A DNA stretch of 17,869 nucleotides from Candidatus Saccharimonadota bacterium (lineage in GTDB: Bacteria; Patescibacteriota; Saccharimonadia; Saccharimonadales; Saccharimonadaceae). A program made the position numbers and the translations under genes. The stretch spans positions 1-17,869 of the forward strand of contig JAFOHW010000044.1 of assembly GCA_017421685.1 (NCBI GenBank), given 5' to 3'. Numbering within the stretch: the first letter of the stretch is position 1; every line of letters starts with the position of its first letter. This document shows, piece by piece, positions 6,509 to 17,389 of this stretch. Under the pieces are notes generated by a model. The model had not been told where the DNA came from. It worked only from the letters and a program-made list of their open reading frames with translations, and did not search any database.

Positions 6509-7063
6509 ATGTCCGACAAGAGATTTAGGCGGACCGAAGAAAAGATTTTTGTTGCAGTTTTTGAGGAAGAAAATTTTCCAGGGGTCAGTTTGATTTCTAG
6601 GAAAACAAAACTTTCACGTTCGACTTTATATAGGCATCATCGGATTCTTCATAATATTGTGTTTGACTATGAAATTTATGTGTATAGAAAATATAAAAAA
6701 ATGATGAAGCCGTTTCTTTTAAATCGTAGAGTTAGTCTCAGAGTTTTATATGATAGGATGCTATGCTTTATTTTAGTTGAAAAAAGAATTATTTTAGCTT
6801 TAACGAAGATTAAAAGATATGTTTTAATCACGAAGATGATAAAAACTTTAAAAGAGAGGATAGAGTCGGCTTATCATTTCCCTAAAGGTTCAAAGAAGGT
6901 TTTTAAGGTGTTTACGGATGAGGTTATTGGGATAATAGATATGTGGGGAGAAAGTGGCTTTTCTCGGGATAAAATCGAAGAGGTTTTGGATGATATGATG
7001 TATTTAACAGAGACCGCAGGAACAAGATTGTCGTCTTTGAAGAAAGAAAATAAACATAACTAG
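6509..7063 (+). CDS. TetR/AcrR-like transcriptional regulator
   Basis: 184 residues from the ATG at 6509, chosen because GGAGG (6499-6503) lies 5 nt upstream; an in-frame ATG at 6476 lacks such a site. The N-terminal 55 residues look like a TetR helix-turn-helix: RRTEEKIFVAVFEEENFPGVS, then LISRKTKLSRSTLYRHH with the SRSTLYRH recognition helix typical of the family. The rest is predicted helical, as in TetR ligand or dimer domains, but matches nothing I recognise and is rich in Lys, Arg and aromatic residues. It follows uvrA by 39 nt. Its stop codon lies inside the CIRCE operator of groES. The target genes and ligand are unknown. A TetR-like fold is fairly confident; a role in heat shock is not supported. 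Confidence 0.75.
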   Translation: MSDKRFRRTEEKIFVAVFEEENFPGVSLISRKTKLSRSTLYRHHRILHNIVFDYEIYVYRKYKKMMKPFLLNRRVSLRVLYDRMLCFILVEKRIILALTKIKRYVLITKMIKTLKERIESAYHFPKGSKKVFKVFTDEVIGIIDMWGESGFSRDKIEEVLDDMMYLTETAGTRLSSLKKENKHN

Positions 7064-7086
7064 CACTCTGGGGTTGTAAGTGCTAA
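7060..7086 (+). promoter_or_regulatory. CIRCE operator (HrcA binding site) of groESL
   Basis: Left arm CTAGCACTC (7060-7068), 9-nt spacer, right arm AAGTGCTAA (7078-7086). The consensus is TTAGCACTC-N9-GAGTGCTAA, so each arm has one change and the N9 spacing is exact. HrcA bound here would cover the -35 region of the groES promoter. The left arm overlaps the stop codon of the upstream TetR-like gene. HrcA itself is not encoded in the window. Confidence 0.92.
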
Positions 7087-7101
7087 AAAGTGTGTTATAA
7101 T
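7074..7101 (+). promoter_or_regulatory. groES promoter
   Basis: TTGTAA (7074-7079), 16-nt spacer and TATAAT (7096-7101), with TG at 7093-7094 forming an extended -10. The -35 lies within the CIRCE element, so repressor binding and polymerase binding should exclude each other. Confidence 0.8.
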
Positions 7102-7125
7102 AGGGGTAGAAAAGGAGATGATAAT

Positions 7126-7380
7126 ATGGCATTGAAACCATTAAAAGACCGAGTTGTGGCAGTTATTGAAAAGCCATTAGAGAAAACAAAATCTGGAATT
7201 TTGCTCGGAGAAGCTAAGGAGAAACCGGCTTATGCGGTAGTTGAGGCGGTTGGACCTGAGGTTTCGGTGGTAAAGAAGGGGGACAAAATTGTCTATAAGG
7301 AGTATTCTACGACTGAGATTAAGGTAGATGAAAAAGATTATATTATTTTAAAAGAGGAAGATATTTTAGCGACTTTATAG
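7126..7380 (+). CDS. groES: Co-chaperonin GroES (Hsp10)
   Basis: 84 residues, shorter than the usual 94-97. The start at 7126 follows AAAGGAG (7111-7117) with 8 nt spacing and gives MALKPLKDRVVAVIEKP, the family N-terminus. GroES forms the heptameric lid of GroEL. The mobile loop with the GroEL-contacting hydrophobic triplet is present as KTKSGILLGEAKEK (20-33). VVEAVGPEVSVVKKGDKIVY (38-57) joins the conserved strands, and DYIILKEEDILATL closes the fold. The missing length falls in the beta-hairpin that forms the dome roof, where other GroES proteins have roughly a dozen more residues. It lies downstream of CIRCE and upstream of groEL, so it is heat-inducible by inference. Confidence 0.96.
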   Translation: MALKPLKDRVVAVIEKPLEKTKSGILLGEAKEKPAYAVVEAVGPEVSVVKKGDKIVYKEYSTTEIKVDEKDYIILKEEDILATL

Positions 7381-7389
7381 AGGTTGGGT

Positions 7390-7453
7390 TGTGGAAAACT
7401 TGTGGAAAACTATGTTAAAAACTTGTGAATAAGGTGTGAAAAAGGGTGGATAA
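7390..7453 (+). repeat. Array of DnaA-box-like 9-mers between groES and groEL
   Basis: Six same-direction 9-mers: TGTGGAAAA (7390), TGTGGAAAA (7401), TGTTAAAAA (7413), TGTGAATAA (7424), TGTGAAAAA (7435) and GGTGGATAA (7445). The starts are 11, 12, 11, 11 and 10 nt apart, about one helical turn. The first, second, fourth and fifth fit the relaxed DnaA box TTWTNCACA read on the opposite strand; the third and sixth each miss it by one base. The array fills most of the 93-nt gap. DnaA binding is an inference; see findings. Confidence 0.6.
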
Positions 7454-7473
7454 TTCAAAGAAAGGATAAGTAA

Positions 7474-9087
7474 ATGGCAAAAAAGATTTATTATGAATCA
7501 GAGGCTAGAGAGAAGGTTCTCTCTGGTGCGAAACAACTATACGATGCTGTAAAGGTTACTTTTGGGCCAAAAGGTAAAAATGTAATTATTGAAAAGGAAT
7601 ATGGGGCGCCGGTAATTACCCATGATGGAGTTACGGTAGCTGAGGCGGTTGAGCTCCCAAATAATGAGGAGAGTCTTGGTGAGGCCGTTGGGGCTAAATT
7701 AATTAAGACGGCTGCCCAAAAGCTAAATAAAGTAGCTGGGGATGGAACTACTACAGTTACGGTTTTAACTTACAATATATTGAATGAGGCGAATAAACTG
7801 ATTGTTGCCGGAATGAACCCAATGGAGCTTAGGAAAGGGATTGAGAAAGCCGGAGCGGAAGTTGTAGCTGAGATTGATAAAATTTCTGAGAAGATTGAAG
7901 GTGATTCTAAGAAAGTAGCTGAGGTTGCGACAATTTCGGCAGGAGATGAGAAGATCGGTGAGTTAATTGCGGAAGTTATTTCAAAGATTGGAAAAGATGG
8001 AGTTGTTACGGTTGAGGCTGGGCAGGGACTTGAAATGGAACAAGAGATTGTCGAGGGATTTAGCTACGACAAAGGTTATTCATCGCCGTTTTTCGTTACT
8101 GACGTGAATCGTCAAGAAGCGATTTTCGATAAACCTTTAATTCTGTTGACTGATAAGAAAATTTCGGCGGGTTCGGATATTTTGCCGATTTTAGAAAAAT
8201 GTGCGCAAGCTGGAAAGAAAGATTTAGTAATTATTGCAGAAGAAGTTGAAGGGGAAGCTCTATCGCTATTAGTTTTAAATAAACTTAAGGGGGTATTTAA
8301 CTCTCTAGTTTTGAAAGCGCCAGCTTTTGGGGAGCGAAGAAAAGAAATAATGGAAGATATTGCGATTTTGACAGACGCAACGGTAGTTTCTTCGGATAAG
8401 GGATTAAAGTTAGAAGAGGTTGGGTTAGAGGTTCTCGGTTCGGCTTCGAAGATTATTGCGACGAAAGACGAGACAACAATCATTAAGGGGTCCGGAAATG
8501 CGAAGGCGGTTTCGGAAAGAATTGGATTGATTCATTCTCAAGTTAAATTAGCGAAGTCGGATTATGAAAAAGAGGAGCTCGAGAAGAGAGCGGCGGCGCT
8601 ATCTGGAAAGGTTGCAGTAATTAAGGTTGGAGGGGCGACTGAAACCGAAATTGATGAGAAGAAATTTAGAGTTGATGATGCAGTTGCGGCGACGAAAGCA
8701 GCACTTTCTGAAGGTATTGTAACTGGAGGGGGAGTTACTTTAGTTAATCTTGCCTCGAAGTTATCTTCGGAAGAGGCGGGGGCGAGGATTGTAAAGAATG
8801 CTCTTAAAACGCCGTTTATTCATATTATGGAGAACGCAGGGTTAAATGCACAAGCGCTACTGGCGGAAGTTGAATCGGCTAAGACCGGATATGGGATTAA
8901 CGTAATGAAGCCAGAAAAAGGATTGGTCGAACTTAAGAAAGCTGGGGTAATTGATCCGGCAAAGGTAACTAAGGAAGCGGTAAAAAATGCTACCTCGATT
9001 GCTTCGACGGCAATTACGATGGGAGCATTAATTTGTAATATTCCAGAGGAGAAACCTTCTGCTCCGGATATGGGCGGGATGTATTAA
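7474..9087 (+). CDS. groEL: Chaperonin GroEL (Hsp60)
   Basis: 537 residues against about 548 in E. coli. GroEL forms the double-ring ATP-driven folding chamber with GroES. The ATP site is intact: TFGPKGKNV (29-37), HDGVTVAEAV (50-59), AGDGTTTVT (88-96) with Asp90 equivalent to E. coli Asp87, and RVDDAVAATKAALSEGIVTGGG with the hydrolytic Asp at 402. The apical-domain sequence (AEEVEGEALSLLVLNKLKG) is typical. The C-terminus DMGGMY has only a single GGM instead of the long GGM tail. AAAGGA (7461-7466) lies 7 nt before the ATG. It shares the CIRCE-controlled promoter with groES and ends at a strong terminator. Confidence 0.98.
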   Translation: MAKKIYYESEAREKVLSGAKQLYDAVKVTFGPKGKNVIIEKEYGAPVITHDGVTVAEAVELPNNEESLGEAVGAKLIKTAAQKLNKVAGDGTTTVTVLTYNILNEANKLIVAGMNPMELRKGIEKAGAEVVAEIDKISEKIEGDSKKVAEVATISAGDEKIGELIAEVISKIGKDGVVTVEAGQGLEMEQEIVEGFSYDKGYSSPFFVTDVNRQEAIFDKPLILLTDKKISAGSDILPILEKCAQAGKKDLVIIAEEVEGEALSLLVLNKLKGVFNSLVLKAPAFGERRKEIMEDIAILTDATVVSSDKGLKLEEVGLEVLGSASKIIATKDETTIIKGSGNAKAVSERIGLIHSQVKLAKSDYEKEELEKRAAALSGKVAVIKVGGATETEIDEKKFRVDDAVAATKAALSEGIVTGGGVTLVNLASKLSSEEAGARIVKNALKTPFIHIMENAGLNAQALLAEVESAKTGYGINVMKPEKGLVELKKAGVIDPAKVTKEAVKNATSIASTAITMGALICNIPEEKPSAPDMGGMY

Positions 9088-11697: not shown

Positions 11698-12207
11698 ATG
11701 GCTCGTACAAATAGTGACGATTTGCTGATGGAGGACGACCTCGCCGCTGCTTTCCTTGGAGGGGATGACGAAATTGTCGCTCCGATGGAACCCGAGGAGC
11801 CAGTAATTGAGGAAGAAGTACCTCAAGAAGAAATCAGCGAACCAGTTGAAGATGAGTGGGAAAATACCGATGAGTTTCCTGGACAACTAGCTGTTGATGT
11901 CTACGAAACTGCCGATAAATTAGTAGTAAAAGCTCGTACCGCTGGCATCTCTAAGTCTGATCTTGATGTCAGTATTTCCGACAATATTTTGACGATTTCG
12001 GGAGTTTTGTCTGGTGGAGAAGATGAGCAAACTACGAGGTGGCATATCCAGGAATGTTATTGGGGAGAGTTTTCGAGAACGATTGCGCTTCCGGTTCAGG
12101 TACGTGAAGATGAAGACAGCGTCAAAGCTGAGCTTAAAGATGGGGTTTTGACAATTACGTTTGAGAAAGAAAAGACTGAGGCACCGAAGAAGATTGCGAT
12201 TCAGTAA
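11698..12207 (+). CDS. Small heat-shock protein (Hsp20 / alpha-crystallin family)
   Basis: 169 residues. The alpha-crystallin domain spans about 62-157: GQLAVDVYETADKLVVKART, then LDVSISDNILTISG and the closing AELKDGVLTITFEK (144-157) with the A-x(4)-GVLTI hallmark. The C-terminal IXI anchoring motif is present as IAI (166-168). Such proteins are ATP-independent holdases that bind unfolding proteins as oligomers. The N-terminal arm (1-60) is unusual: strongly acidic with repeated Glu/Asp/Pro and few aromatic residues, where most family members have a hydrophobic arm. GGAGG (11689-11693) lies 4 nt before the ATG. The gene is monocistronic between its own promoter and terminator, and divergent from comF. 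Confidence 0.95.
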   Translation: MARTNSDDLLMEDDLAAAFLGGDDEIVAPMEPEEPVIEEEVPQEEISEPVEDEWENTDEFPGQLAVDVYETADKLVVKARTAGISKSDLDVSISDNILTISGVLSGGEDEQTTRWHIQECYWGEFSRTIALPVQVREDEDSVKAELKDGVLTITFEKEKTEAPKKIAIQ

Positions 12208-12699: not shown

Positions 12700-13089
12700 T
12701 TAACTACTGAAAAGGATATCTTTGATAACGAAATTGACGATAGCAAAAGCAAGTACGCAAACCGCGAGACCGATAACTGCGTAGAGAATAGTATCTCTGG
12801 CTTTTTTAATTTTCGGAGCGTCGCCGGTAGAAGTCATATACTGGACGCCGCCGATGATAATGAATATTACTGCGACGATTCCGAGAACCGTAATAATTGC
12901 ATTAATGATGTTTATAACTATTCCAGGTAGTTTATCTTCTGATCCTTCACATCCGTTAGCTTCGCGAACGGTTTCTGGCAGATTGCCGTCGCAAGGGTTA
13001 GTTGCGAATGCTGGGGAAAGACTAAAAGCGCTAAACCCGACGAGGCTAGCGATAACTAGGATTATTGTTTTAAAGGGTTTTAGTTTCAT
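12700..13089 (-). CDS. VirB2-like pilin protein 3
   Basis: 129 residues. A clear signal peptide (KLKPFK, hydrophobic 8-24, likely cut after SPAFA at 29) is followed by a short exported segment with two Cys (33 and 47) that could form a disulfide. The hairpin is IVINIINAIITVLGIVAVIF (57-76), turn GGVQYMTSTGDAPKIKKARD (80-99), then ILYAVIGLAVCVLAFAIVNF (101-120). It closely matches protein 2. A near-perfect AAAGGAGGT lies 3 nt before the ATG, itself within the 3' end of gene 4; the two genes overlap by 20 nt and are translationally coupled. The strong ribosome binding site suggests high output, as expected for a pilin subunit. Confidence 0.84.
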   Translation of the reverse strand: MKLKPFKTIILVIASLVGFSAFSLSPAFATNPCDGNLPETVREANGCEGSEDKLPGIVINIINAIITVLGIVAVIFIIIGGVQYMTSTGDAPKIKKARDTILYAVIGLAVCVLAFAIVNFVIKDILFSS

Positions 13090-13843
13090 GGACCTCCTTT
13101 AAGGCTATTATATTGTTAGTTGGATTAACTAGGGCAGAAGATTCTGCGTTGCGGATGAGGTTCGAGACAAATGCAGAGATGACTATAGCTAGAGCTACGA
13201 TTGCTAGTCCGATTAGAGAATAGAGGATTGAATTTTTTGCTTTTTGTATTTTTGATGCTTCGCCAGAAGAAGTTATATAGAGGACGCTTCCGTAGATAAG
13301 GAAGATGACCGAGACGACTCCAACAATACTAATAACCCAAGTGATGAGACTTTCGACTAGAGTATTAGGATCAACGCAAGGGGTAGTTGCAGTCATGCTT
13401 GCACATTCACTAAGATTACCGTCTCCTCCGAGAAGAACGATACGAATTGAGCTAATAATAATGTTTGCAAGCATGACTATGGCGAGACCAATAAAGGCTT
13501 GGGTTAAAGTTTTCTTTCCGGTAGCTACTTTACTAGGGTCACCACTAGACATAATATAAAGATATCCTCCGTAAATAACATATCCTAGGATTAAATAAGA
13601 AGCAATTACAGTTATATCGGAAGCAATATTCGCGACAATGAGCCAGATACCGGATTTTAAAGATTCTTCATCTGTGATATTTACACCACAATCCCAGGAG
13701 GTGAGACCAAGTATGTTCTCACAATTGCCTTCAAAGAAAGATTCTTTTGCGAGAGTCGAACTTGGGTTAAACGAAGAAAAAATAGCAGAGAAAGATGAGA
13801 TTATTAGGCTTATAACAAGAAATTTTTTTAGTATATTTTTCAT
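13070..13843 (-). CDS. Tandem-duplicated VirB2-like pilin protein 4 (two hairpin domains)
   Basis: 257 residues, about twice the length of its paralogues. Signal peptide 1-32 (likely cut after STLA). The first exported segment has Cys41 and Cys52. The first hairpin is VIASYLILGYVIYGGYLYIM (79-98), turn SSGDPSKVATGKK, helix QAFIGLAIVMLANIII (115-130). A second exported segment has Cys147 and Cys156. The second hairpin is VGVVSVIFLIYGSVLYI (174-190), turn TSSGEASKIQKAKNS, helix ILYSLIGLAIVALAIVISAF (206-225). It thus carries two copies of the domain found singly in proteins 1-3. The start has only a weak GGAA upstream. It is the first gene of a minus-strand pair with protein 3 and is divergent from the VirB6-like gene. 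A structural partner of the pilin, rather than the main subunit, is a reasonable guess. Confidence 0.82.
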   Translation of the reverse strand: MKNILKKFLVISLIISSFSAIFSSFNPSSTLAKESFFEGNCENILGLTSWDCGVNITDEESLKSGIWLIVANIASDITVIASYLILGYVIYGGYLYIMSSGDPSKVATGKKTLTQAFIGLAIVMLANIIISSIRIVLLGGDGNLSECASMTATTPCVDPNTLVESLITWVISIVGVVSVIFLIYGSVLYITSSGEASKIQKAKNSILYSLIGLAIVALAIVISAFVSNLIRNAESSALVNPTNNIIALKEVHETKTL

Positions 13844-14020: not shown

Positions 14021-17000
14021 ATGATAATGAAAAAATATTCAAGAATGAACTTGAAAAAGGCCGTTTTTGGTTGTTTTTTCGTGATTATGACTTTGTTCGG
14101 ATTTTTATCTAATTGTTATATTAATACTCAGGATGTTTACGCTGTTTCGACCGATGAATCCACCTCTATTAGTGAAGATTCTGGGAGTATTATAACTGTA
14201 GTGGATGCTCCCGATGATACGGGTGATGCAAAAACGAGAAGTGATAGTTGTCAGAGTAGTTTAGGTGCGATCGGGTGGTTGGTTTGTCCGACGACTGGAA
14301 AAATTGCAGAGGCTATTGACGGATTATATGGACTTTTAGAAAACTTTTTAGTTATTAATCCGGTTTCGGCGGAAGAAGGTACTCCTGTTTATGAAATTTG
14401 GAAGTATTGTCGAGGATTGACTAATATTGCGTTTATTATTTTCTTGTTGGTAGTAATTTATTCTCAGATAACGGGAATTGGGATATCTAATTATGGGATT
14501 AAACGGGTATTACCAAAGTTAATTATTGCGGCGGTTTTAGTGAATTTGAGTTATCTGATTTGTACTTTGGCGGTAGATGTATCGAATGTAATTGGGAATA
14601 GCCTAAGAGGGCTTTTTGCATCGATAGGGGAATCAGCGGTAGTTACAGGAAGCGATGTAGCTTCGACGATGAAGGTTTCTTATTCGGATCTCTTCTCTTC
14701 TCTTGCCGGGGGATCTGCGCTTGCGATTGGAGGAACAGTTATCGCGATTGAATCTGGAGCGATTTGGATGCTGATTCCTACGGTTCTCGGAGCGATTGTG
14801 GCGATTGTGACTGGGCTTATTACGATTACGCTTCGTCAAGCAGTCGTAGTGCTTCTTATCATGATTTCGCCACTAGCAATTGTGGCTTATATGCTACCTA
14901 ATACGGAGAGCTTGTTTAAAAAATGGAAAGATTTACTAATTAAAATGTTGGTGTTTTATCCAATGTTTAGTTTATTGTTTGGGGCATCGAATTTAGCTGG
15001 ATTTGCGATTATAACTAGTGCGACTAGCGTTTTTGGTATTATTCTTGGGATGGCGGTACAGATTTTCCCGTTATTCTTTGCTTGGACTCTAATGAAAATG
15101 TCTGGCACATTTCTTGGTGCGATTAACCAGGGTCTTAGGGGAATTACGAGTGGGCCATTGGCGAGAAACAGGGCTTGGGCGGAATCGCAGAAGGCGAGGA
15201 CGAAAGCCAAGAACCTTGCTTCAGGTAGACCCACGACACCATCTCTTAGACTTATGCAATTTATGCATAATCGTAATGTTGCGAGAGAGGCTGAAATTAG
15301 TGAGAATGAACAGTTAGCGAAGAAGCGAGCGATGGCTTATTATCGTGGGAAGCGTTACAACAAAGATGGTAGCAGTACGAAGAAGGGTCTAGAGGCATAT
15401 GAGAGGCAGGCTTTGGGTATGCAATACGATAAAGTTGTACTTAGAGATGATAATAATATGAATAAAGGATTAGGGGAACTTAAGGCGAACGAAGGTTCTA
15501 AATATGGCGCGAGGATTAAGGGGCTAGATGTAATGAATGTGGAGGCTTCGGATGAATTGAATATAGAAAAGGCGAGAGCCCAAAGTATCGAATTTGGCAA
15601 TGCTAAGGGTTTTTATAATAGAATGAAAGACGCTATAGGCTTGCATGCTGACGAGACTGAGGGTTATGAAATTGATGCTAATACAGGACAAAGGGTTAAG
15701 AAGGAAGATTATAAATTCCATTTCAAAGAAGGTACTCCTGTTGCTAAAATCAATGAGGCTTCAGCTAGATACGATAAAATTAATGAAATTATGGAAGGAA
15801 ATGAAGCTGATATCCAATATGCGGCAGCTATAGCTGCGCACGGTTATGATACTCAATTGAAAATGTATGCGACGAATTTTCAGAAACATTTTGAAATGAT
15901 GCCTTCGTCTAAGAATTTAGATTTAGCATTAAGTGAACTAACGACTTTGCCAAATGCTTCAAGCTATATCGATGCAATTATACCTGGGCTCAGGGTAATT
16001 AATCAGCGAGGGGACACTGATGTGGTCTTAAAACATATTAATAATATAATGAATAGTGCTGAAGGCTTGGAGTTAGGGACACACGCTTCGCAGTCTTTAG
16101 CAAATTTCTTGATGTTTGATGTAAAAGATTCTGACCCGTGGCTTCGAAGATTTGGTAAATATATTAATCTCGAGACGGCGCGTGTATATAGCAAGAATGA
16201 ACGAAAAGAATTGAAAGTGAATTATGATGAGTATGTGAAGGGTTATCATGATGAACCGGATCCGGATAATCCTGGACAGACAAAAAGAATGTATGCGAAA
16301 AAAGGAATGTCGGTTCTTATGGAAGGTACGTCTTTGGATAGCTTAGAGAGAACGGCTTTTGCGAGTTTAGATGAAAGCTTAAAGCATGCGTATACTGGTC
16401 CTAATGGGCTTGATGTGGATGGATATCTAAAGAAGCGAGGCGAAATTCAGCAAGCTATTGGGGCGCAGTTTAATTCGGCAAGCGGTAAATATCTTGCTGG
16501 AAGCGAACAATTAAAGAATGCAGTATCATTCTTGACTGGATATAATTATACGCAAATGAAGGATCCTAATACTAAGGAAATTATTTTAGACGATAACAAT
16601 GATCCGATGTATCAATGGCAATCAGTTTGGGATACTGAGAACTATAATGGGCAAGAGAATAAAGTTAGAAAATATTATAGAGATAAGACAAAAGGGTATA
16701 TTGAGAGCTTAACTCCGACCCAGATATTAGGAATGCGTTCGGATTATAGGGATCCGATGATGGAGCATTTAGTAGATATGTTCCTTGAAGAATCGCCGGA
16801 AGGTGATGAATATAGAAGAAGAATGTCTGATGTTCAGACGAGATATGGAGATTTGTCCGTTAACGAGGCGAAAAAGAAGCGTGATAATGATATGAAGAAT
16901 TTGAAGATGGAGATGGCAGGAAAACAAATGAGGAAAATCCTTGGAGATACTGGCAAGCTAGCCCAGATTTACAGGACTCGTAGGTCGGGTGCGGCTAATG

Positions 17001-17389
17001 GTGCGAAAGACTGGCTACGTCAGTGGGTTAGTCTTGATGACGAGCAAGTTCTATTAGGAGAAGTGAAGAAGTATGAGAGAGCGCGAAGAGAAAGAGAAAG
17101 AAGGAGTAATGAAGTTGTTGATTCTGGGGAGCCGGCACAACAGAGAATTTATAGCGATGAAGATATCGAGAATTTTGTACTAAATATAAATAATTTATAT
17201 GATAATTTGAATACTGACGACCCTCAGGCTTTTTACGATGAATCATCAGATTTCATAAAGAATAGTCTAGGTGAACAGAGTCGTATCTATAATGAATATA
17301 GGCGTTTTCATGACGATGATCCATATGCGGATAGCGATGTCTTGAAACAATTCCTTGAGGACATGCTTAGGGATTCAGACAATTATTAA
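14021..17389 (+). CDS. VirB6/TrbL-like membrane protein with a very long cytoplasmic tail
   Basis: 1122 residues. A signal-like hydrophobic segment (14-34) precedes a low-complexity exported stretch (42-120). A multi-helix membrane core spans about 133-365: NIAFIIFLLVVIYSQITGIG, KRVLPKLIIAAVLVNLSYLI, then ITITLRQAVVVLLIMISPLA and helices ending at FPLFFAWTLMKMSGTF. The conserved loop with NYGIKRVLPKL and the RQAVVVLLIMISPLA helix match the VirB6-like channel proteins I associate with CPR type IV secretion loci. Residues 375 to the end (about 750) are hydrophilic, charged, mostly helical and without membrane segments or a recognised domain. Start at 14021 follows GGGAGG at 10 nt spacing; Met3 and Met9 are alternatives. 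It has a perfect promoter and is divergent from pilin-like genes 4 and 3. Predicted role: inner-membrane channel of a secretion or DNA-transfer machine. No ATPase gene is in the window. Confidence 0.82.
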   Translation: MIMKKYSRMNLKKAVFGCFFVIMTLFGFLSNCYINTQDVYAVSTDESTSISEDSGSIITVVDAPDDTGDAKTRSDSCQSSLGAIGWLVCPTTGKIAEAIDGLYGLLENFLVINPVSAEEGTPVYEIWKYCRGLTNIAFIIFLLVVIYSQITGIGISNYGIKRVLPKLIIAAVLVNLSYLICTLAVDVSNVIGNSLRGLFASIGESAVVTGSDVASTMKVSYSDLFSSLAGGSALAIGGTVIAIESGAIWMLIPTVLGAIVAIVTGLITITLRQAVVVLLIMISPLAIVAYMLPNTESLFKKWKDLLIKMLVFYPMFSLLFGASNLAGFAIITSATSVFGIILGMAVQIFPLFFAWTLMKMSGTFLGAINQGLRGITSGPLARNRAWAESQKARTKAKNLASGRPTTPSLRLMQFMHNRNVAREAEISENEQLAKKRAMAYYRGKRYNKDGSSTKKGLEAYERQALGMQYDKVVLRDDNNMNKGLGELKANEGSKYGARIKGLDVMNVEASDELNIEKARAQSIEFGNAKGFYNRMKDAIGLHADETEGYEIDANTGQRVKKEDYKFHFKEGTPVAKINEASARYDKINEIMEGNEADIQYAAAIAAHGYDTQLKMYATNFQKHFEMMPSSKNLDLALSELTTLPNASSYIDAIIPGLRVINQRGDTDVVLKHINNIMNSAEGLELGTHASQSLANFLMFDVKDSDPWLRRFGKYINLETARVYSKNERKELKVNYDEYVKGYHDEPDPDNPGQTKRMYAKKGMSVLMEGTSLDSLERTAFASLDESLKHAYTGPNGLDVDGYLKKRGEIQQAIGAQFNSASGKYLAGSEQLKNAVSFLTGYNYTQMKDPNTKEIILDDNNDPMYQWQSVWDTENYNGQENKVRKYYRDKTKGYIESLTPTQILGMRSDYRDPMMEHLVDMFLEESPEGDEYRRRMSDVQTRYGDLSVNEAKKKRDNDMKNLKMEMAGKQMRKILGDTGKLAQIYRTRRSGAANGAKDWLRQWVSLDDEQVLLGEVKKYERARRERERRSNEVVDSGEPAQQRIYSDEDIENFVLNINNLYDNLNTDDPQAFYDESSDFIKNSLGEQSRIYNEYRRFHDDDPYADSDVLKQFLEDMLRDSDNY

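Follow-up and report, generated by a model that had tools for sequence, protein, structure and literature searches.

In Escherichia coli, DnaA is described as preferring in vivo two direct 9-mer boxes separated by a spacer of 2 or 3 bp. Of the 16 regions found there by DnaA ChIP, 15 closely match such a double box, and mutation of either box or addition of one base pair greatly lowers binding (Stringer et al. 2024, PMC11317965). Double boxes also occur away from oriC, including one in the upstream region of rpoH (PMC11317965), and DnaA is reported to bind at this heat-shock sigma gene and repress it (Wang and Kaguni 1989, via PMC8203912). DnaA-dependent attenuation of the his operon, or his leader, has been proposed in the same species (PMC10989985). 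DnaA-box clusters outside oriC are further described as datA and DARS and in Bacillus subtilis; datA and the B. subtilis cluster lie near the origin, and the function of datA and DARS suffers when strong transcription passes through them (PMC5010248).

The locus compared here lies in a window of 17,869 nucleotides, the whole stretch of Candidatus Saccharimonadota DNA that was analysed, from a genome of 643,773 bases on 70 contigs. On the + strand, groES (positions 7126 to 7380, its stop ending at 7380; Pfam Cpn10, 76.8 bits) is followed by groEL (7474 to 9087, ATG at 7474; Pfam Cpn60_TCP1, 216.6 bits), and the 93-nt + strand gap between them (7381 to 7473) carries a row of six DnaA-box-like 9-mers. 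Upstream of groES on the + strand are a CIRCE-like operator (7060 to 7086, 16 of 18 positions matching) and a sigma-70-like promoter, TTGTAA-16-TATAAT (7074 to 7101), which is a consensus match only. Matched to the CIRCE consensus and without a shuffled control, a CIRCE-like operator with at most 4 mismatches was present at 78 of 80 evaluable groESL loci. The genome also encodes HrcA, so that both parts of the known CIRCE/HrcA control of groESL have a counterpart here. CIRCE, however, sits at the promoter and has its repeats inverted, whereas the array consists of direct repeats in a row inside the operon. On the + strand of the gap neither a consensus promoter nor a terminator was found, and an internal promoter or terminator was rejected as the gap element; the − strand held a single promoter-like match (9/12). 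An Rfam scan of positions 6900 to 7700 gave nothing above gathering score. Its one match, below that score, lay within the groEL coding sequence, and an RNA family was rejected on these grounds. Elsewhere in the window, a gene for an HSP20 small heat-shock protein (11698 to 12207) lies about 2.6 kb downstream of groEL, positions 13070 to 13843 encode a type IV secretion pilin-domain protein (PF18895), with small membrane ORFs resembling it nearby, and an ORF of 1122 aa at 14021 to 17389 had no Pfam match.

All six boxes of the array are on the + strand, where a strict box was defined as TGTGNAWAA. Box 1 (7390 to 7398) and box 2 (7401 to 7409) are both TGTGGAAAA, which on the − strand reads as the putative DnaA box TTTTCCACA; box 1 is an exact match and the same 9-mer as the boxes between rpmH and dnaA described below. 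Box 4 (TGTGAATAA, 7424 to 7432) and box 5 (TGTGAAAAA, 7435 to 7443) are also exact matches to the strict pattern. The degenerate box 3 (TGTTAAAAA, 7413 to 7421) and box 6 (GGTGGATAA, 7445 to 7453) each have one mismatch. Start-to-start steps along the row were 11, 12, 11, 11 and 10 nt. The coordinates therefore bear out the first-pass annotation, which had described six same-strand 9-mers 10 to 12 nt apart, four of them exact and two off by one base.

The strict pattern occurred 5 times on both strands of the window, and 4 of these matches were in the groES-groEL gap. By comparison, 300 dinucleotide shuffles of the window gave a mean of 1.4 matches and a maximum of 2 per strand within 55 nt, and 5000 shuffles of the gap alone never gave more than 2. 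The whole genome (643,773 bases) contained 60 TGTGNAWAA matches compared to 29 for the reversed control pattern. The gap was the only place with more than 2 matches in 54 nt and the densest such cluster. With maxima of 2 in the shuffles and elsewhere in the genome, the 9-mers are not equally dense outside the gap, and a chance origin of the array, already doubted at first reading, was ruled out.

Boxes 1 and 2 and boxes 4 and 5 form two putative double DnaA boxes, each in the same orientation and with a 2-bp spacer, as in the direct repeats of E. coli. The 9-mer differs, being TTTTCCACA here and TTATCCACA in the E. coli consensus (PMC11317965). Also unlike the E. coli double boxes, up to six boxes stand in a row, between two chaperonin genes in an operon of a Saccharibacterium.

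The dnaA gene, which the first-pass annotation had proposed to locate, was found on a short contig, where it follows an rpmH-like sequence and precedes a dnaN-like gene (names by ORF reading). The rpmH-dnaA region of this genome contains four TGTGGAAAA boxes in both orientations. Among 30 dnaA loci of the genus, the best 30 matches of a dnaA search, the 350 bp upstream of dnaA held 99 strict boxes, 94 of which were TGTGGAAAA, and this 9-mer of the array was present there in 30 of 30 loci; the dnaA coding sequence (40.9 kb) held just 10 strict boxes. TGTGGAAAA was also the commonest box (24 copies) in the 15 dnaA regions examined from other families. Since the same 9-mer dominates the rpmH-dnaA regions, TTTTCCACA is taken as the DnaA box of this lineage. 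The DnaA of this genome is encoded by an intact gene and has the PF08299 domain (76.7 bits). It keeps ARQ and KDHSTV, which we take to include the residues contacting DNA, with S replacing the T of the compared relatives. Loss of a base-contacting arginine from the DnaA of the genus was considered as the reason why the box has TTTT in place of TTAT. This idea was rejected because the (P/A)RQ motif persists and because TGTGGAAAA is common already in the rpmH-dnaA regions of other families. The orientation of the boxes, their spacing of 2 or 3 bp, the 9-mer shared with the rpmH-dnaA regions of the genus and a DnaA gene intact in its DNA-binding domain together support well the DnaA-box-like identity first proposed for the array.

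Behind dnaA, 8 of the 30 genus loci have in their dnaA-dnaN gap strict boxes paired on the same strand at a distance of 11 or 12 nt. Most lie just behind the dnaA stop, resembling the layout of the groE gap, and in the relatives L131 and L128 rows of boxes follow directly 3' of it. The dnaA-dnaN gap of this genome contained two single boxes and no strict pair 11 or 12 nt apart. The likeness of the array to the rows in L131 and L128 would suit a secondary or relocated replication origin, one of the roles suggested at first reading. Against this, this genome retains intact boxes between rpmH and dnaA. In the relative G027 (400 kb of one contig), moreover, GC skew was strongly positive from dnaA (447 kb) onward, its slope shifting at dnaA, and at groES (507 kb, 60 kb off) it merely stayed positive. 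This skew comes from one genome, which has no double box, and it shows neither a classical V shape nor a clearly negative stretch ahead of dnaA; it would fit an origin at dnaA better than one at groESL. Given the conserved boxes beside dnaA and the change of slope there, a secondary origin at the array is exceedingly improbable.

When 81 groESL loci were compared (the window and 80 GroEL relatives, all Saccharibacteria, including Candidatus Nanosyncoccus alces), at least two strict boxes were found in 24 gaps, one in 6, and degenerate remnants, judged by eye, in 3. On the GroEL tree all 33 of these loci fell inside one clade of 58 rows (support 89/93, not starred). Absence of the repeats from related genomes, which had been named as an argument against the array, was thus observed in part: 33 of the 58 clade loci keep an array or remnant, and 25 of the 58, as well as all 23 rows outside the clade, have none. 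Among the 25 clade members without a gap box, 23 had gaps of 3 to 25 nt and 2 had gaps of 36 nt. The no-element label required 15 changes on the tree, which would most simply reflect repeated loss of the array. Of the 35 gaps in the clade that measure at least 35 nt, 33 carried boxes or remnants (the three remnants by eye), and seven long gaps outside the clade contained no boxes. With 33 of 35 long gaps occupied and the 23 short ones empty, a long groES-groEL gap within the clade nearly always means an array.

The strict boxes of the 35 long clade gaps, 57 in all, were without exception in sense orientation; shuffled gaps gave a mean of 1.8 and a maximum of 7. The first box lay 2 to 21 nt behind the groES stop in 31 gaps, and where strict boxes followed one another in these groE gaps, 25 of 27 steps were 11 or 12 nt, equal to spacers of 2 or 3 bp. 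For 57 clade loci, the groES-groEL gaps contained 53 boxes in 2,151 bp, and the flanks with the gap excluded contained 72 boxes in 405,789 bp (56 sense, 16 antisense), among them 10 pairs spaced by 11 or 12 nt. The gaps of L035 and L037 are identical. Two different groESL loci, L026 and L037, come from one metagenome assembly (RGIG5886), and G165 and G188 each gave two groES matches; these are either paralogues or mixed bins.

The count of 57 sense boxes against no antisense ones would also fit an RNA element, in which an RNA-binding protein, or DnaA, recognises the transcribed UGUGGAAAAC repeats and so adjusts how groEL is translated or how the groES-groEL mRNA decays; the DnaA-RNA attenuation proposed in E. 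coli (PMC10989985) would offer a precedent. No Rfam match exceeded gathering in 6900 to 7700, however, the rpmH-dnaA region retains the 9-mer in both orientations, and a period of 11 or 12 nt would suit the binding of one DNA face. An RNA element is accordingly judged improbable.

The exact pair TGTGGAAAA-N2/3-TGTGGAAAA was found in 94 of 174 genomes of the genus, and the reversed control in 0 of 174. Among the 150 pairs listed (the pair table sums to 196), at least 23 were in the groES-groEL gap, for which the first-pass annotation had proposed a genome scan. With spacers of 4 to 30, the conserved spacer-12 pair of the rpmH-dnaA region, recognised by its spacer motif and not by position, accounted for 83 of the 150 matches listed; the remaining 67 had spacers of 6 to 29, with 15 at 12, 11 at 13 and 11 at 15. 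At the order level the relaxed pair was found in 14 of 197 genomes. Outside the genus it was present in only three genomes, all of the same family, and in none of the other-family genomes drawn at this level.

Not every double box of the genus appears to be a DnaA site. Among the matches listed, 75 distinct pairs were sorted by position: 45 lay within ORFs on the sense strand, 14 on the antisense strand, and 16 were not in ORFs; this set is not a random sample, and L094, L111 and L219, perhaps with others, were classed as coding through read-through ORFs. Because 33 of the 45 sense ORF pairs sit in the frame encoding VE[KN]xVE[KN], many double boxes in coding sequences may be protein linkers, and a general reading of double boxes as DnaA sites was rejected. 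A glycosyltransferase-like gene (VALVCDWLT..GGAEKVLLE; by ORF reading) has double boxes in L090, L092, L095, L099, L103, L108, L152 and L167, in sense in some species and in antisense in others. In L096, L155 and L164, box pairs lie in the gap that separates a small gene from a recombinase-like gene (names by ORF reading).

The second noncoding double box of this genome (L001:1501-1520; G000:C19:10683-10702, − strand) is between carbamate-kinase-like and ornithine-carbamoyltransferase-like genes (the arcC-OTC gap; names by ORF reading); its orientation relative to the genes matches that in groESL. Rows of two or three boxes at a 12-nt period occur 0.8 to 2.0 kb upstream of groEL in L013, L020, L028, L035, L037, L045 and L082; the gene with boxes upstream of groES is TylF-type methyltransferase-like in several relatives (by ORF reading). 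In a look for compensation, seven loci had this upstream-gene pair, too few to say: L028, L035, L037, L045 and L082, whose gaps lack strict boxes, and L013 and L020, whose gaps have them.

Box pairs recurring at many loci could reflect a global regulator, and another DNA-binding protein with a similar target might occupy the array. Yet DnaA would be sufficient, given the boxes beside dnaA, the double-box rule of 2 or 3 bp and the intact DnaA, and a different protein is very improbable.

The best reading of the array, to which we give an even chance of being correct, is that of a DnaA-binding array modulating transcription into groEL. The array would be a double DnaA box, two direct 9-mers 2 or 3 bp apart, extended to six boxes. 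This spacing would place the boxes on the same helix face, and DnaA would bind the phased boxes cooperatively. As no promoter was found on the + strand of the gap, transcription of groEL would start at the CIRCE promoter and pass through the array, and bound DnaA could act as an elongation brake, partly blocking or attenuating the RNA polymerase arriving from that promoter. High free DnaA would then be expected to lower groEL relative to groES. Recurrence of the site just after the stop of groES, within the groESL transcription unit, supports such a brake. Several points speak against it: the array is dispensable, as 25 of the 58 clade members have no box; the double boxes of the gene upstream of groES cannot affect groEL in this way; the fixed orientation of the boxes may be mere descent; and there are a promoter-like match on the − strand of the gap and double boxes elsewhere.

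The statement made at first reading, that DnaA boxes inside a heat-shock operon were not known, needs qualifying, because E. coli DnaA acts at rpoH. The predicted DnaA binding at a heat-shock gene resembles that case. In E. coli, however, the site is in the promoter region of the heat-shock sigma gene (PMC8203912), and here it follows the first gene of a chaperonin operon of the CIRCE type. The E. coli case is thus a precedent for DnaA action on a heat-shock gene.

The main rival to the DnaA brake is that the array titrates DnaA, or controls DnaA-ATP, for replication timing, with groESL merely a convenient early-replicating place. The groES gene was 17 to 60 kb from dnaA in 59 of 59 relatives' cases with both on one contig, a count drawn from the 150 listed pairs, 112 of the groES places listed and 149 dnaA places; in this genome the two genes are on different contigs, and the distances are those of the relatives. 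The array thus resembles datA, which is placed at a relative distance of 0.10 from oriC, and the B. subtilis cluster, in lying near the origin (PMC5010248). Double boxes in the dnaA-dnaN gap (8 of 30), the arcC-OTC gap and the methyltransferase gene upstream of groES would also be expected of titration. The array differs from datA and DARS in its position inside an operon, within a predicted transcribed unit, where strong transcription would harm such a function (PMC5010248), and it recurs at one exact spot right behind the groES stop. Titration is therefore regarded as possible but rather unlikely.

The brake and the origin might also be joined in a two-way switch, in which DnaA on the array brakes groEL and heat-shock transcription started at the CIRCE promoter sweeps DnaA off toward the nearby origin. 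The eviction step is drawn by analogy with datA and DARS, which transcription disables, and the switch as a whole is doubtful.

Saccharibacteria are reduced, host-dependent bacteria. In the titles and abstract openings of the literature searched, no description of a DnaA-box array at groESL and nothing on replication timing in Saccharibacteria was found. Overproduction of GroELS is reported to cause over-initiation in an E. coli dnaA46 mutant (PMC11853086), which makes a link between folding and replication physiologically reasonable. Retention of the array in many related species hints at such coupling. A conserved initiator-binding array in a chaperonin operon would link protein-folding stress to replication in a testable way and, if the two-way switch were true, a single site of 60 bp in this ultra-reduced genome would read out both proteotoxic stress and replication initiation.
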